Source: Nakamurella alba (GTDB lineage: Bacteria > Actinomycetota > Actinomycetes > Mycobacteriales > Nakamurellaceae). Taken from it: a stretch of DNA of 64,000 bases. Position 1 is the stretch's first letter. Each line of letters opens with the position of its first letter. Shown here piece by piece: positions 31,274-60,691 of the stretch. The stretch is from contig NZ_WLYK01000001.1 in assembly GCF_009707545.1 (NCBI RefSeq), forward strand, positions 1,860,001 to 1,924,000, read 5' to 3'. The notes under the pieces were generated by a model. The model searched no databases. It was not told where the DNA came from and worked only from the letters and a program-made list of their open reading frames with translations. The position numbers and the translations under genes are program-made.

Positions 31274-31630
31274 TCAGTCCGTGAGCTTCTTGACGCCGAC
31301 GTAGGCGCCTGCCGTGGCGACGGAAGCGCCGACCCCGATGATCGCGCCCCACAGAGCGCTGGCGATCCCGGCCGCCGCGAACAGCGGGAGCACCCCACCG
31401 TTGGTGCCTTCCAGGTCGGACTCGCTCAGTTCGGAGTCGGGCTGCACGGCGGGGACGGCCGGCGGCAGGGTGAGCACCAGCTTCGACGGACTCGTCTCGC
31501 GGACCTCGACGATGGTGGTGGCCGGCAGCTCGACGCCTTCGGCCGACAGGACCGCCTTGGGGTCGGCCAGCAGGGTGGTGCGGAAGTCCCGGTCGGTGGC
31601 GGCGCGGGACTGGATGTCGTGCAGGATCAT
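31274..31630 (-). CDS. NHLP-type precursor peptide, copy 4
   Basis: A 118-residue peptide, last of four tandem paralogues. The leader (residues 1-79) matches the nitrile-hydratase-leader-peptide family of RiPP precursors: RDFRTTLLADPKAVLSAEGV, LVLTLPP, then SELSESDLEGTNGG. The double Gly at 78-79 is the likely cleavage site. The 39-residue core VLPLFAAAGIA... has no Cys, is hydrophobic with spaced Gly, and ends VGVKKLTD. ATG with GGAAG eight bases before. It is separated by 67 bp from copy 3. No modification enzyme or peptidase-exporter is adjacent. Confidence 0.8.
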   Translation of the reverse strand: MILHDIQSRAATDRDFRTTLLADPKAVLSAEGVELPATTIVEVRETSPSKLVLTLPPAVPAVQPDSELSESDLEGTNGGVLPLFAAAGIASALWGAIIGVGASVATAGAYVGVKKLTD

Positions 31631-31697
31631 GATCGTCTTCCGTGGTCGGGGTGAGGGTCGTCGCGGGTGTGGTGGGGAGAGCGCGGGCGGGCCCGGC

Positions 31698-32030
31698 TCA
31701 GAACCACTTCTTGCTCTCGACGCCGAGGACGAAGGCGATGGGGATGACGAGCGCCCAGGGGGAGATCCCGCCACTGGCGCCCGACAGCGCATCCTCGGTC
31801 AGTTCGGCATCGTCGTCCTGCTGCAGGACCGGAGGCAGATCCAACACGAACTCGTCCGGGCGGGTGGGCTCGACCACCGACACGGTGAGGCCTTCGGGGA
31901 CGTCGACGCCCTCGGCGACCAGGGTGCCCCGCGGGTCGGCGATCAGCCGGGCGCGGAACTGCGGGTCGAACCCGGCGCGGATCCTGATGTCGTCCAGCGT
32001 CGGCACGGATGCCTTTTCGATCGTGGTCAT
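31698..32030 (-). CDS. NHLP-type precursor peptide, copy 3
   Basis: A 110-residue paralogue. Leader: FDPQFRARLIADPRGTLVAE, FVLDLPPVL, DAELTEDALSGASGG with GG at 87-88. The 22-residue core starts ISPWALVIPIAF and ends VESKKWF; it is the shortest, is Cys-free and aromatic at its end. The ATG overlaps the stop of copy 2 (TGATG), implying translational coupling. The ribosome site is poor, consistent with coupling. Confidence 0.8.
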   Translation of the reverse strand: MTTIEKASVPTLDDIRIRAGFDPQFRARLIADPRGTLVAEGVDVPEGLTVSVVEPTRPDEFVLDLPPVLQQDDDAELTEDALSGASGGISPWALVIPIAFVLGVESKKWF

Positions 32031-32368
32031 CAGCCCAGCCACCGACCGAGACCGAAGGCGGAACCGCCACCGGCGATCACGAAGCCGAGGATGAGGAACG
32101 GCCCGACACCGCCGTCGGCGGCGGCCAGCTGGTCGTCGGTCAACTCCATGTCCTCGAGCAGCGGCGGCACCGTCAGCACGATGTGCTCGGGAGTGGACTC
32201 CACGACGTCGATCTCGAGATCGGCCGGCACCTCGATGCCGGCGGCGGCGAGCACCGCGTGCGGGTCGGCGATCAGCGACGCCCGGAACTCCGGGTCGACG
32301 GCGCTGCGCGAGTACAACTCCTGCAGCACCGCTTCCGCGGACACTGCAAGGCTTTCGGTGGTGGTCAT
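32030..32368 (-). CDS. NHLP-type precursor peptide, copy 2
   Basis: A 112-residue paralogue. Leader: VDPEFRASLIADPHAVLAAA, IVLTVPPLL, MELTDDQLAAADGG with GG at 86-87. The 25-residue core VGPFLILGFVIAGGG... is hydrophobic, Gly-rich, Cys-free, and ends GLGRWLG. ATG preceded by ACAGGAAACATCG. It follows copy 1 after 49 bp and overlaps copy 3 by one base. Confidence 0.8.
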   Translation of the reverse strand: MTTTESLAVSAEAVLQELYSRSAVDPEFRASLIADPHAVLAAAGIEVPADLEIDVVESTPEHIVLTVPPLLEDMELTDDQLAAADGGVGPFLILGFVIAGGGSAFGLGRWLG

Positions 32369-32417
32369 CGATGTTTCCTGTCCTCGTGGATGTCCTGGTG
32401 TTCGGTCGCGGGCGGGA

Positions 32418-32822
32418 TCAGCTGGTGGCCTTCTTGTAACCGGCGTAGCCGGCTCCGAAGACCGCGCCGGCCCCGGCGGTCCAGGCGAGATAGCCCAGTG
32501 CGGCGTCCTTGACGACCTCCATGCCCATCAGGCCGATGACGACCATCGGGGTCGCGCCGCCGGAAACGTCGGCCAGGCCGTCCTCGGTCAGCTCGGCGCT
32601 CTCGTCCACCACCGGGGGGAGGGCGAGCACCAGATTGTCGTCCGTCGACTCGGCGACGGTGATCGAGATCGTCTCCGGCACCACGACTCCGGCCTCGGCC
32701 AGCACAGCCCGCGGGTCGGCGAGCAGGGCGGCGCGGAACTCCGGGTCGAACGCGGCGCGGGCGCGGACGAGATCCAGCGGGGCCGGGGTGGTCTCGGTGG
32801 CGGGGGCAGCGGACAGGGTCAT
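32418..32822 (-). CDS. NHLP-type precursor peptide, copy 1
   Basis: A 134-residue paralogue and the promoter-proximal gene. Leader: FDPEFRAALLADPRAVLAEA, NLVLALPPVV, SAELTEDGLADVSGG with GG at 88-89. The 45-residue core begins ATPMVVIGLMG, contains GxxxG spacing (AGAGAVFGAGYAG), and ends GYKKATS; there is no Cys. All four cores have Pro at position 3 after GG. NHLP leaders normally guide RiPP modification and export by C39 peptidase transporters, neither of which is in this window. Start supported by alignment with its paralogues; the ribosome site is weak. Confidence 0.8.
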   Translation of the reverse strand: MTLSAAPATETTPAPLDLVRARAAFDPEFRAALLADPRAVLAEAGVVVPETISITVAESTDDNLVLALPPVVDESAELTEDGLADVSGGATPMVVIGLMGMEVVKDAALGYLAWTAGAGAVFGAGYAGYKKATS

Positions 32823-33030: not shown

Positions 33031-34062
33031 TCAGGGTGTGCGGGCGGACCAGCCGAGCGCCGGTCCGAGCCGGGTGGCGGTGTCGGTGAGGATCTGCACG
33101 TAGTCCTCGTGCCGGAAGCTGAACGGCAGTGCGAAGGCGACCTCGTCGATCTCGCGGAAGGCGGCGTGCGCGTACAGCCGCTCGGCGATCTGCTCCGACG
33201 TCCCGACCAGATCCGGGGCGAACATCATCCGGCGCGGCCCCTGCGGCGTCCGGGTGCGCGGCAGGCGCGATTCCGCGTAGGCCCGGTAGCGCTCCCGCTG
33301 ATCGGCGTCGGCACTGTCGGTCGGGATCACCACCAGTCCCTGTGACACCCGGGCCCGGTCGCCGAGCGGGTGCGCGGCCCGGAACGCCCGGATGTGCCCG
33401 AGCTGGATGTTCTCGAAATCCGGTGCGGCATCATCACTCTCGGCTCCGACGACGCTGCTGGCCAACAGGTTGAAGCCGTGTTCGCCGGCCCACACCGCGG
33501 ACCGCAGGCTCGCGCCGCCGTACCAGAGCCGGTCGGCCAGGCCGGGGGAGTGCGGCTGGACGTGGTCGGAGAATTCCTCGATGCCCTCGGTCCCGGAGAA
33601 CTGCGTGGCGGGGTCGCCCCGGAGGAACCCGCGCAGTCGCAGCACCCGGTCGTAGCCGAGGTCCTCCAGCTCCATCGTGTCGGGGTAGAGCGCGTCCTTG
33701 ATCCGGTCCCAGTGCATGGGCGGGCCGGTGCTGACGCCGGGGTTCAGCCGGCCACCGGTCAGCACGTCCACCGTCGCCAGGTCCTCGGCGAGCCGCAGCG
33801 GGTTCTCCCACCCCAAAGGTGTGACAGCGGTGCCGAGTTCGATGCGCCGGGTGCGTTGCGATGCGGCGGCCATCACGGCGACCGGCGACGAGATCCCGTA
33901 CTGCAGGTGCCGGTGGCGGAGCCAGGCACTGTCGAAGCCGAGCCGTTCGCCGAGTTCGATCACCTGCAGGGTCGACTCGTGCCCGGCGCCGGGGTGTGCG
34001 GGGTCGAACAGACCGATGGTCAGGAAGCCGAGCTTGCGCAGCGGCTGGGAGGGCTCGGGCAC
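33031..34062 (-). CDS. LLM-class flavin-dependent oxidoreductase
   Basis: Bacterial luciferase-like monooxygenase fold (TIM barrel binding FMN or F420), 343 residues. Seen: KLGFLTIGLFDPAHPGAGHESTLQVIELGERLGFDSAWLRHRH, TRRIELGTAVTPLGWENPLRLAEDLATVDVLTGGR, and a C-terminal VGTSEQIAERLYAHAAFREIDEVAFALPF. Substrate unknown. GTG start. It lies upstream of the four NHLP-type genes on the same strand with 208 bp between, so it could be a tailoring enzyme for them, but the spacing and probable promoter argue that the link is not proven. Confidence 0.9.
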   Translation of the reverse strand: MPEPSQPLRKLGFLTIGLFDPAHPGAGHESTLQVIELGERLGFDSAWLRHRHLQYGISSPVAVMAAASQRTRRIELGTAVTPLGWENPLRLAEDLATVDVLTGGRLNPGVSTGPPMHWDRIKDALYPDTMELEDLGYDRVLRLRGFLRGDPATQFSGTEGIEEFSDHVQPHSPGLADRLWYGGASLRSAVWAGEHGFNLLASSVVGAESDDAAPDFENIQLGHIRAFRAAHPLGDRARVSQGLVVIPTDSADADQRERYRAYAESRLPRTRTPQGPRRMMFAPDLVGTSEQIAERLYAHAAFREIDEVAFALPFSFRHEDYVQILTDTATRLGPALGWSARTP

Positions 34063-34406: not shown

Positions 34407-36049
34407 GTACGGCCCCGCACGCGGTCACCCTCGCCGACGTCTCTTTCGCATGGGCCGACGGTGCGCTCCTTCTCGACGGAGTTTCCGGCACGTTCGGGCG
34501 CGGGCGCACCGGGTTGATCGGCGCGAACGGGGCCGGCAAATCGACACTGCTGCGGCTGATCGCCGGCGAACTGACGCCGACCGCCGGGTCGGTCACCACG
34601 CACGGACGCGTCGGACACCTCCGGCAGGGTGTGCTGCTCCGGAAGGATGCGCAGGTCAGCGACCTGCTCGGCATCCGGTCGCCGCTGGACGCGGTGCGCG
34701 CCATCGAAGCGGGCTCCACGTCGCCGCAAAACTACGAGGCCGTCGGTGACCGATGGGACATCGCCGCGGAGGCGAGCGCCGCCCTCGACGAGGCAGGGCT
34801 CGGCCGGATCGATCTCGACCGCCGCGTCGGGACGCTCTCCGGCGGCGAGGGGATCGCGGTCGCACTGATCGGGCTGCGACTGGCGGAGGCGCAGATCGCC
34901 CTGCTCGACGAACCCACCAACAATCTCGACTCCCGGGCGCGCGGGCAGCTGCTCGACCTCGTCGCCGACTGGAAACGCACCATGATCGTGGTCAGTCATG
35001 ACGTACGCCTGCTCAACGCCATGGACGCCACGGCCGACCTGCGGGACGGCGCACTCGAGTTCTTCGGCGGAACCTACGACGCCTACACCGAGCATCTCGC
35101 GCTCGAACAGGCGGCGGCCGAACAACAACTCCGCACCAGCGAGCAGGAGCTGCGCACCGAGAAGCGCCAGCGCATCGAGGCCGAGACCAAGCTCGCCCGA
35201 CGGCAGCGCTACGCGAAGACCGACTACCGGAACAAGCGCAAGCCGAAGACCGTGATGCGGCAGCGCGCGACCGAGGCGCAGGTGTCGGCCGGCAAGCACC
35301 GCGGTCTGCTCGACGACCGCGTCGAGGCCGCCGAGCTGGCGGTCGCCGCCGGCGAGAGCCGGGTGCGTCGCGACGTCCGTATCCACCTCGACCTCCCGGA
35401 TCCGGACGTGCCCGCCGGCAGGGCGCTGCTACGCCTGGATGCAGGCGACTTCACGACCGAACTGCGCGGCCCGGAGCGGCTCGCCCTCCTCGGCGACAAC
35501 GGCGTCGGCAAGACCCGACTGCTCGAAGGTCTCGTCGCGGGCCGATCACCCCACGGCACCCTGTTCACCGACCGCGTCGGATACCTGCCGCAGCGCCGGG
35601 AACTCGCCGACGAGACAGGAACCGTGCTCGCAGCCGTGAGCGCGGTGGCACCGCATCGGACGGGCGGCGAGCTGCGATCGAACCTGGCCCGGCTGGGTCT
35701 GCGCGGCGAGGCGGCCGAACGCCAGGTCGCCGGTCTGTCGGGTGGCGAGCGATTCCGGGTCGCTCTCGCCCGGCTGCTGCTCGCCGAGCCGCCCCACCAG
35801 CTGCTGCTGCTCGACGAACCGACCAACGACCTCGATCTGGCCACCATCGACGTGCTGGTGCAGGCGCTCGAGGCCTACCGCGGCGGACTCGTCGTCGTCA
35901 GCCACGACGACGGGTTCCTCGAGCGCCTCGGGATCGGCACCTGGATCGAACTGTCCGGGCTCGGGTGTCCCCGGTTCCGGGCCGCGCGACAGGACGGGTC
36001 CGCACGGTCGACGGCACCGACCTCACCGCCGACCGGCTCACCACGATGA
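34403..36049 (+). CDS. ABC-F family ribosome-associated ATPase
   Basis: Soluble twin-ABC protein without membrane helices, 548 residues. First ABC: GANGAGKSTLLRLIAGEL, LSGGEGIAVALIGLRL, ALLDEPTNNLD. The linker (about 235-300) is long, basic and Arg/Lys-rich (KLARRQRYAKTDYRNKRK), the region that reaches the tRNA/peptidyl-transferase centre in antibiotic-resistance ABC-F proteins. Second ABC: GDNGVGKTRLLEGL, LSGGERFRVALARLLL, LLLLDEPTNDLDLATIDV. The TTG start overlaps the leader peptide stop; no ATG or GTG fits homology. The 3' end overlaps the convergent XRE gene by 12 bases. Role in ribosome protection is likely but unproven. Confidence 0.9.
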   Translation: MSTAPHAVTLADVSFAWADGALLLDGVSGTFGRGRTGLIGANGAGKSTLLRLIAGELTPTAGSVTTHGRVGHLRQGVLLRKDAQVSDLLGIRSPLDAVRAIEAGSTSPQNYEAVGDRWDIAAEASAALDEAGLGRIDLDRRVGTLSGGEGIAVALIGLRLAEAQIALLDEPTNNLDSRARGQLLDLVADWKRTMIVVSHDVRLLNAMDATADLRDGALEFFGGTYDAYTEHLALEQAAAEQQLRTSEQELRTEKRQRIEAETKLARRQRYAKTDYRNKRKPKTVMRQRATEAQVSAGKHRGLLDDRVEAAELAVAAGESRVRRDVRIHLDLPDPDVPAGRALLRLDAGDFTTELRGPERLALLGDNGVGKTRLLEGLVAGRSPHGTLFTDRVGYLPQRRELADETGTVLAAVSAVAPHRTGGELRSNLARLGLRGEAAERQVAGLSGGERFRVALARLLLAEPPHQLLLLDEPTNDLDLATIDVLVQALEAYRGGLVVVSHDDGFLERLGIGTWIELSGLGCPRFRAARQDGSARSTAPTSPPTGSPR

Positions 36050-59080: not shown

Positions 59081-60691
59081 TTGCACATGCCAGTCAGCTG
59101 GTGGCGCCGCACCGTCGCGGGGCTGGTGGTCTCGGCCGTCGCCCTGGGAGCCCAGGTCCTGACCGGCCCTGTCGGCATCGCGGCCGCGGCGACGGTCCGG
59201 CCTGCTGTCGTTGCGCCGGCCGCCGCCGTCCCCGCCCCTGCCCCGTCGGCAGTACCGGATCCGGCAGCGACTCCCGGCCCCGTGGCCGTCCCCGCCACCG
59301 AGGCCGCTCCCGCACCGGCGCCCGCCCGGCCGGCAGCTCTGCCGTACGACGGGGCACCGCGGCTGACCAGCCTGGTGGCCTTCGCCCACGAGTGGGCGAA
59401 GAAGGACATCCCGTACGTCTACGCGGGCGGTCACGGCCCGACGCCGGGGATCACCCTCGGCGGGTTCGACTGCTCCGGTTGGGTGCGCTGGGCCTACTGG
59501 AGCGCGTTCGGCGTCGACATCGGCGGCGGCACCGCGCATTCGATCATCCATTCCGGGCAGTTCGTGAAGACCTCGACGCCGGTGCCCGGCGACGTCACCG
59601 CCTTCAACTGGTCCGGGGGCACGCAGGTCAACCACATCGGCATCTACGTCGGCGGTACCGCGCCGGACGGCCGTCCGGCGCAGATCGACACCCCGGACGT
59701 CGGGAAGACGGTCAGCCTGCGCGGCTTCGGGTTCGGATTGCTGGGCTACTACCACTACGTCGGTGCGACGCCCGCCGACTCGGGACCGCTGGTGCACCCG
59801 GTGTCACTGACCGCCACCGCCCCGGCCACCGCCGACAAGGGGCAGGTGGTGCCGGTGTCGGGGAAGGTCACCGGCGGCACCGGCATCGTCCGGCTGTACA
59901 CCCGCAACGTCGGCGCCACCAGCTGGACGCCCGGGACAGAGGTCCGCACCACGTCCACCGGTGGCTACTCGATGCGGTACGTCGCCACCGGCACCGCGCA
60001 GCGACTCATGGTGCGGTACCTGGGTTCCGCGAAGGCCAGGGCCGTCGACTCCGCCCAGCTCACCCTCGGTGTCACCGTCCGGAGCACCGTCACCACGGCC
60101 ACCGCACCGGCCACCGCGATCCGTGGTCAGGCGATCAGCATCACCGGCCGGTCGACCGGGACATCGGCCACCGCAGGTTCTCTCGTCCGCATGTACACCC
60201 GGGACGCCGGTGCGGCCGGCTGGCGCAGCACCGCCGAGACCCGCACCGACGCCCGTGGCCGTTACGCGCTCCGGCTCGTCGCGACCGGTCGGCCCACCGA
60301 GGTGCTGGTGCGGTTCGTGGGCAACACCGCGGCCCGGATGTCCGACGCCCCGGTGCTGACCGTGCGAGTGTCCACCGGCGCCACCCGCACCGCGGCGATG
60401 GTCGTCGGCGGCGAATCCGCAGGGCGGGGCGACCTGGTGCTGGTCAAGGGTCGGGTGACCGGCGTCGCCGAGGGCACCGGCATCGTCGGTGGCACCGTGC
60501 GGCTGTACGAGCGGTCCACGCCCACCGGGCCATGGTTCGTCGCCGCCCACGGGACCACCGATGCGCGGGGCTACTTCACCATCGAGTACACGACGCCGGA
60601 CCGGACCCGGGTGTACCTGCTGACCCGGTTCCTCGGCGCCGGCACCGCGAAGCTCTCCGACGCGACGGTGCTGGAGCTCGAACTCGGCTGA
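59081..60691 (+). CDS. Secreted NlpC/P60 protein with three C-terminal repeat domains
   Basis: A 536-residue exported protein. A signal peptide (WWRRTVAGLVVSAVALGAQVLTG...AAAA) is followed by a Pro/Ala linker to about 85. The NlpC/P60 peptidase domain (about 88-230) has the catalytic Cys in GGFDCSGWVRWAYW near 130 and His in VNHIGIYVGG near 184. Three related beta-sandwich-like repeats follow (about 245-335, 337-433, 435-535), each with VRLYTR/VRMYTR/VRLYER and a final RYLGSAKA/RFVGNTAA/RFLGAGTA. The TTG at 59081 is seven bases after GGGGAGGG and better placed than the ATG at 59087. Probably cuts cell-wall peptides; the repeats may bind the wall. Confidence 0.88.
   Translation: MHMPVSWWRRTVAGLVVSAVALGAQVLTGPVGIAAAATVRPAVVAPAAAVPAPAPSAVPDPAATPGPVAVPATEAAPAPAPARPAALPYDGAPRLTSLVAFAHEWAKKDIPYVYAGGHGPTPGITLGGFDCSGWVRWAYWSAFGVDIGGGTAHSIIHSGQFVKTSTPVPGDVTAFNWSGGTQVNHIGIYVGGTAPDGRPAQIDTPDVGKTVSLRGFGFGLLGYYHYVGATPADSGPLVHPVSLTATAPATADKGQVVPVSGKVTGGTGIVRLYTRNVGATSWTPGTEVRTTSTGGYSMRYVATGTAQRLMVRYLGSAKARAVDSAQLTLGVTVRSTVTTATAPATAIRGQAISITGRSTGTSATAGSLVRMYTRDAGAAGWRSTAETRTDARGRYALRLVATGRPTEVLVRFVGNTAARMSDAPVLTVRVSTGATRTAAMVVGGESAGRGDLVLVKGRVTGVAEGTGIVGGTVRLYERSTPTGPWFVAAHGTTDARGYFTIEYTTPDRTRVYLLTRFLGAGTAKLSDATVLELELG

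Follow-up and report, generated by a model that had tools for sequence, protein, structure and literature searches.

Four consecutive genes of Nakamurella alba, a soil bacterium, encode precursor peptides with NHLP leaders, and no partner enzyme or transporter accompanies them. The question is which machinery, if any, serves these precursors, and what their products are. The genes lie in the window, that is, the whole stretch of 64,000 nucleotides that was analysed (C1:1860001-1924000, in an assembly of 6.05 Mb and 29 contigs).

The operon and its leaders

The four genes are all on the minus strand and fill positions 31274-32822 of the window, the direction of transcription being from 32822 to 31274:

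32418..32822, minus strand: W4, NHLP precursor of 134 aa, first gene of the operon; core of 45 aa at 32421-32555; TIGR03793 score 53.9 bits
32030..32368, minus strand: W3, NHLP precursor of 112 aa; core of 25 aa at 32033-32107; 56.3 bits
31698..32030, minus strand: W2, NHLP precursor of 110 aa; core of 22 aa at 31701-31766; 42.6 bits
31274..31630, minus strand: W1, NHLP precursor of 118 aa; core of 39 aa at 31277-31393; 56.0 bits; resembles class IIb bacteriocins

The stop codon of W3 and the ATG start of W2 overlap (TGATG, around 32028-32032). The coordinates and frames agree with the four paralogous genes and the core lengths of the original prediction, which had also placed the peptides in the NHLP precursor family. 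The TIGR03793 search bears this out: all four proteins match (E values from 4e-11, for W2, to 2e-15), and W1, W3 and W4 exceed the curated cut-off of 50.9 bits, while W2, which is below it, shares the operon and the leader alignment with the other three.

The leaders align end to end, as had been claimed. Among the columns without variation in the precursors of the window and of N. leprariae are D26, F29, R30, L33, D36, P37, G45, P49, E58, P69, L78, L83, G89 and P92 (numbering of W4). In W1-W4 the leader ends with an ELTxDxL....GG-like motif, which includes an L(X)4L spacing. NHLP leaders originate from the alpha chain of nitrile hydratase, and the matches of the window leaders to that chain (Pfam PF02979), mostly weak, agree with this origin. 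A published description of NHLP leaders (PMC12455567) gives them a trihelical bundle and, close to where they are cleaved, an L(X)4L motif. In the AlphaFold model of W4, which is of modest confidence, the Gly-Gly is preceded by three helices, a hairpin and a further helix; the pLDDT reaches about 90 in the leader and is low in the core.

Elsewhere in the window, an ABC gene (34514-36049) has no C39 domain according to a profile search, and its sequence reads as ABC-F like. The frame at 59375-60691 begins like NlpC/P60 proteins (FDCSGW...) and continues with repeated Ig-like segments, as judged by eye.

The machinery on a second contig

A TIGR03793 search of the genome finds 11 precursors in two places only, four in the window and seven on contig C11, at a locus (C11:290230-303049) that also encodes short GG peptides, a LanM-type enzyme and an NHLM export set:

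C11:290230-294474: seven NHLP precursors (TIGR03793)
C11:291531-293138, inside the precursor array: five short GG peptides of 59-79 aa, which lack the NHLP body and retain just the GG-proximal part of the leader or a variant of that part
C11:294495-297029, minus strand: LanM-like gene, DUF4135 and part of a LanC-like domain
C11:297275-298129: HlyD-like adaptor, TIGR03794 score 107.5 bits (cut-off 156.2)
C11:298224-300353: C39-peptidase ABC transporter (PCAT), TIGR03796 score 877.7 bits
C11:300350-303049: second ABC protein, TIGR03797 score 592.6 bits (cut-off 709.4)

The C11 transporter, in which the Cys, His and Asp residues of the C39 peptidase are present, is the sole match to this domain in the genome, and the LanM-like enzyme is the sole match to DUF4135. 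YcaO (PF02624) gives no match in the genome and is detected in control genomes, which makes azoles very unlikely. The genome search for C39-ABC and NHLM transporters that had been proposed thus returns a complete set, and the headline of the original prediction, that the operon has no visible modification or export system, is wrong at the level of the genome. The absence of RiPP enzymes and of a C39 transporter holds for the window only, and it is the limits of the window that make the system look missing. The fallback that had been offered (enzymes elsewhere, or unmodified secreted peptides) pointed in the right direction.

The two loci are physically separate, which counts against recognition in trans. 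On the other side stand the similarity of the leaders and their co-occurrence with the machinery. The mean leader identity is 46.9% between the window and C11, 47.3% among the window leaders themselves, and about 32% between the window leaders and a TOMM-type leader of another genome, G005; the closest leader to that of W1 is a C11 leader (56.4% identity). DUF4135 occurs in three of 17 Nakamurella genomes (N. alba, N. leprariae and G006), and window-type precursors in two, N. alba and N. leprariae, which are those with this LanM and PCAT locus; both have distant precursors. In N. leprariae YIM 132084 the second ABC protein, PCAT and adaptor are on one strand, the LanM-like gene and four precursors on the other, and two lone precursors are found at C1:117010-117348 and C16:10430-10810. 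In G431, a genome from another family of the same class, seven precursors lie next to a homologous LanM and four others at a distance from it. The comparison with related genomes, also suggested at the outset, recovers dispersed precursors that one machinery would serve in both N. leprariae and G431. NHLP matches in many relatives often come as two per frame of 200-500 aa, the pattern to be expected from nitrile hydratase alpha subunits; such frames were not counted as precursors.

Other NHLM loci of the genus have a different content. G005 has an NHLM cluster with a TOMM-like look (C5:67741-81449), which includes a long NHLP precursor ending with a Cys-rich core (INCCCCPCCCCT); the NHLP precursors of this genome are Cys-rich. 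In G006, the region C1:1098118-1110393 combines a TfuA-like gene and two YcaO-like genes with a DUF4135 enzyme and NHLM transporters. It probably corresponds to the cluster of dehydrazole type that has been described in a Nakamurella strain (PMC10676384). In G013 (C1:115627-121631), the NHLM adaptor, PCAT and second ABC protein have as neighbour a GG peptide of 61 aa, whose core of 21 aa is cationic; no modification enzyme was recognised nearby.

Scattered precursors served by a single LanM have a precedent in the prochlorosins and synechococsins (PMC10783134). Those peptides, however, have Nif11-type leaders, cores with Cys and an active cyclase, whereas here the leaders are NHLP and the cores hydrophobic and Cys-free. 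The NHLP/NHLM systems with LanM (PMC2887384) share the leader family, the GG site, the NHLM set and the many variable-core precursors per genome. They differ in that nearly all Nakamurella cores are Cys-free, the zinc site of the LanM is lost and four precursors are remote.

The LanM-like enzyme and its zinc site

The TIGR03897 scores of the LanM-like enzymes are 205.6 bits in N. alba, 303.5 in N. leprariae and 373.8 in G431, for a cut-off of 304. Alignments with CylM and LicM2, and with 20 other LanMs, most of which have the zinc ligands, show that the three enzymes keep, with CylM spacing, the equivalents of CylM K274, D347, H349, N352, D364, E366, R506 and T512, which we take to be kinase/lyase (dehydratase) residues. 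In all three, the zinc ligands Cys, Cys and His are lost, and the W-C-x-G and C-H-G motifs are replaced. The identity among the three enzymes is 34-38% in the cyclase-like part and 37-46% in the dehydratase part. The former is about as conserved as the latter and thus seems to be retained under constraint. A fold model of the N. leprariae homologue aligns over its full length with LicM2 (Z 21.9) and CylM (Z 20.6), but it is of low confidence (mean pLDDT 56.5) and was used for this overall similarity only.

Class III enzymes cyclise without zinc, so the loss of the ligands alone does not prove the loss of cyclase activity. The composition of the substrates is the stronger argument: lanthionine bridges in the window peptides are excluded by the absence of Cys, which the original prediction had correctly noted in all four cores. 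Of the 607 residues of the Nakamurella cores taken together, 2 are Cys, a near absence that the loss of the zinc site fits. Since the site is gone and the window cores have no Cys, the C11 enzyme cannot build lanthionine on them. The earlier exclusion of lanthionine was thus right and is strengthened by the lost site, and it leaves room for dehydration of Ser and Thr.

Cys loss and zinc loss are not strictly coupled. Indeed, in G431, despite the missing zinc site, four of the seven adjacent cores have Cys, each shortly after [ST]TP, and the Cys-free state may therefore be derived in Nakamurella. A sample of 395 genomes from the class and 166 from the order of G431 yielded only distant LanMs besides those of N. 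alba and G431; the zinc-less lineage looks rare in this partial sampling. LanM-like proteins of other Actinomycetes (L086:7379-11557, from G389, and L075) are also without zinc motifs; no NHLP precursor was found in the G389 genome.

The LanMbC enzymes of dehydrazole biosynthesis, e.g., CcaM, also have a DUF4135 dehydratase fused to a cyclase-like domain without zinc ligands and dehydrate without forming lanthionine; one of their clusters is in a Nakamurella strain (PMC10676384). In these enzymes the zinc-less domain is required for dehydration (PMC10676384), which by analogy offers a possible reason for its retention here. They pair, however, with YcaO on azole-bearing peptides, whereas the N. 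alba genome has no YcaO, and the LanMbC-like protein of G006 is only distantly related to the C11 enzyme (about 55 bits). Clostridium CA_C0082 lacks both the zinc site and the dehydratase residues (PMC10301443), and differs in this from the C11 enzyme, which keeps the latter. Haft et al. considered in 2010 that LanM-associated NHLPs without Cys presumably stay dehydrated (PMC2887384).

The cores and the nature of the products

The original prediction described the cores as completely different from each other. This overstates the case, for the cores have features in common: all four have Pro at +3 after the Gly-Gly, are hydrophobic, mostly of Gly/Ala-zipper build, and have a basic C-terminal end. 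The same features recur in 24 precursors that have the full leader (those of the window, of C11 and of N. leprariae, and the adjacent ones of G431; three genomes in all). Pro is at +3 in 20 of them, for a background of 6.4% (binomial p about 1e-20, an optimistic value because the kinship of the paralogues is ignored), and Thr is the commonest residue at +2 (12/24). All 24 cores are hydrophobic on average, and the C-terminal end is net positive in most. They contain 42 GxxxG pairs, compared to 24.5 (s.d. 4.1) in shuffled cores, and none of 2000 shuffles reaches this number (kinship again being ignored).

The class IIb bacteriocin profile of the lactobin A/cerein 7B family (TIGR03949, cut-off 21.5 bits) gives 23.7 bits for W1, 18.5 for W3, 12.7 for W2 and 12.5 for W4. 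When the core of W1 is shuffled, four of five versions have no match and the fifth scores 11.9 bits. The likeness to this family lies in the GG leader end and the Gly-rich hydrophobic GxxxG helix. The differences are the NHLP leader in place of a short GG leader, the single peptide out of four above the cut-off, the lack of a recognised immunity gene in the neighbourhood of the window operon or the C11 locus, and the host, which belongs to the Actinomycetes and not to the lactic acid bacteria. Roseocin (PMC10027976) and rodencin (PMC11519912), which are two-component class II lanthipeptides, are also made by LanM from paired precursors, and the leaders of the roseocin family are NHLP, but the LanMs of that family have the CHG zinc motif and its peptides thioether rings (PMC10027976), both absent here.

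The explanation we favour, and consider probable, is that the operon encodes satellite precursors of a genome-wide NHLP/NHLM system whose sole machinery is on C11, and that the products are Gly-zipper, bacteriocin-like peptides, exported in trans and at most dehydrated. The sequences themselves establish the leaders with their GG sites, the architecture of the cores, the one remote machinery and the missing zinc site. Each precursor consists of an NHLP leader ending with L(X)4L and Gly-Gly, and of a short, hydrophobic, Cys-free core, mostly of the zipper type. Co-occurrence and leader identity suggest that the C11 proteins recognise the window leaders in trans; the C39-ABC transporter would cleave after the Gly-Gly and, together with the HlyD-like adaptor and the second ABC protein, export the core. 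The LanM-like enzyme may dehydrate some Ser and Thr, e.g., in the Thr/Ser-Pro at core +2/+3, but this dehydration is the least certain part of the proposal: the window cores have few Ser/Thr (4, 2, 1 and 4), so that it could be minor or absent. The products would insert into the membranes of competitors, probably as several co-acting helical peptides, like class IIb bacteriocins.

The main competing explanation, which we consider unlikely, is that the remote PCAT exports the window peptides without their ever being modified. They would be plain class II (two-peptide) bacteriocins with a borrowed NHLP leader, and the LanM-like enzyme would act on other C11 peptides or be a relic. The W1 core, which passes the class IIb cut-off when its shuffled versions fail, and the scarcity of modifiable residues in the window cores agree with it. 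The NHLM set of G013 suggests that export-only use exists in the genus, and the five C11 peptides with the leader tail alone may be export-only substrates. Against it, all eight dehydratase residues persist in three enzymes that have diverged from each other, each encoded next to precursors in its genome, the four window genes all have the full NHLP leader although a bare export signal would be shorter, and the preference for Thr at +2 also argues against unmodified peptides.

It is far less probable that the operon is an inactive or cytoplasmic leftover, made of duplicated precursors without expression or processing. The partner genes are absent nearby, and a scan of the operon for the sigma-70 consensus, uninformative in high-GC Actinobacteria, gives no promoter-like match. 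Orthologues of the LLM-type neighbour (33031-34062) exist in 10 other Nakamurella genomes, and the flanks of this gene differ in all five genomes examined: gene order around the locus is not conserved, and no empty site can be defined from these flanks. Yet the four frames are intact and of coding-type composition, the leader residues, GG sites and +3 Pro are kept in all four, and the W1 leader is still nearest to a C11 leader.

Ordinary lanthipeptide or TOMM precursors, with rings or azoles installed by remote enzymes, are hardly credible: NHLP leaders are classically served by LanM and YcaO enzymes and a LanM-like gene is present, but lanthionine chemistry is rejected for want of Cys and of a zinc site, and YcaO/TOMM chemistry for want of a YcaO gene in the genome.

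If the operon is indeed a satellite of the C11 system, "orphan" NHLP precursors in Actinomycetes can belong to one remote machinery, which neighbourhood-based mining misses. The combination that remains of interest is that of a zinc-less LanM, Cys-free zipper cores and dispersed precursors. It is conceivable, and we propose it only tentatively, that a LanM lineage without cyclisation acts by dehydration only on Cys-free glycine-zipper pore-forming peptides dispersed over the genome; the products would form a class of linear dehydro-amino-acid bacteriocins, apart from lanthipeptides and dehydrazoles, in which the full-length leader would specify modification and export, and the tail alone export. 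The zinc-less LanM and the Cys-free cores make a natural pair for testing whether lanthipeptide enzymes evolve into dehydration-only enzymes, and the operon hints at how lanthipeptides and class IIb-like bacteriocins may be connected.
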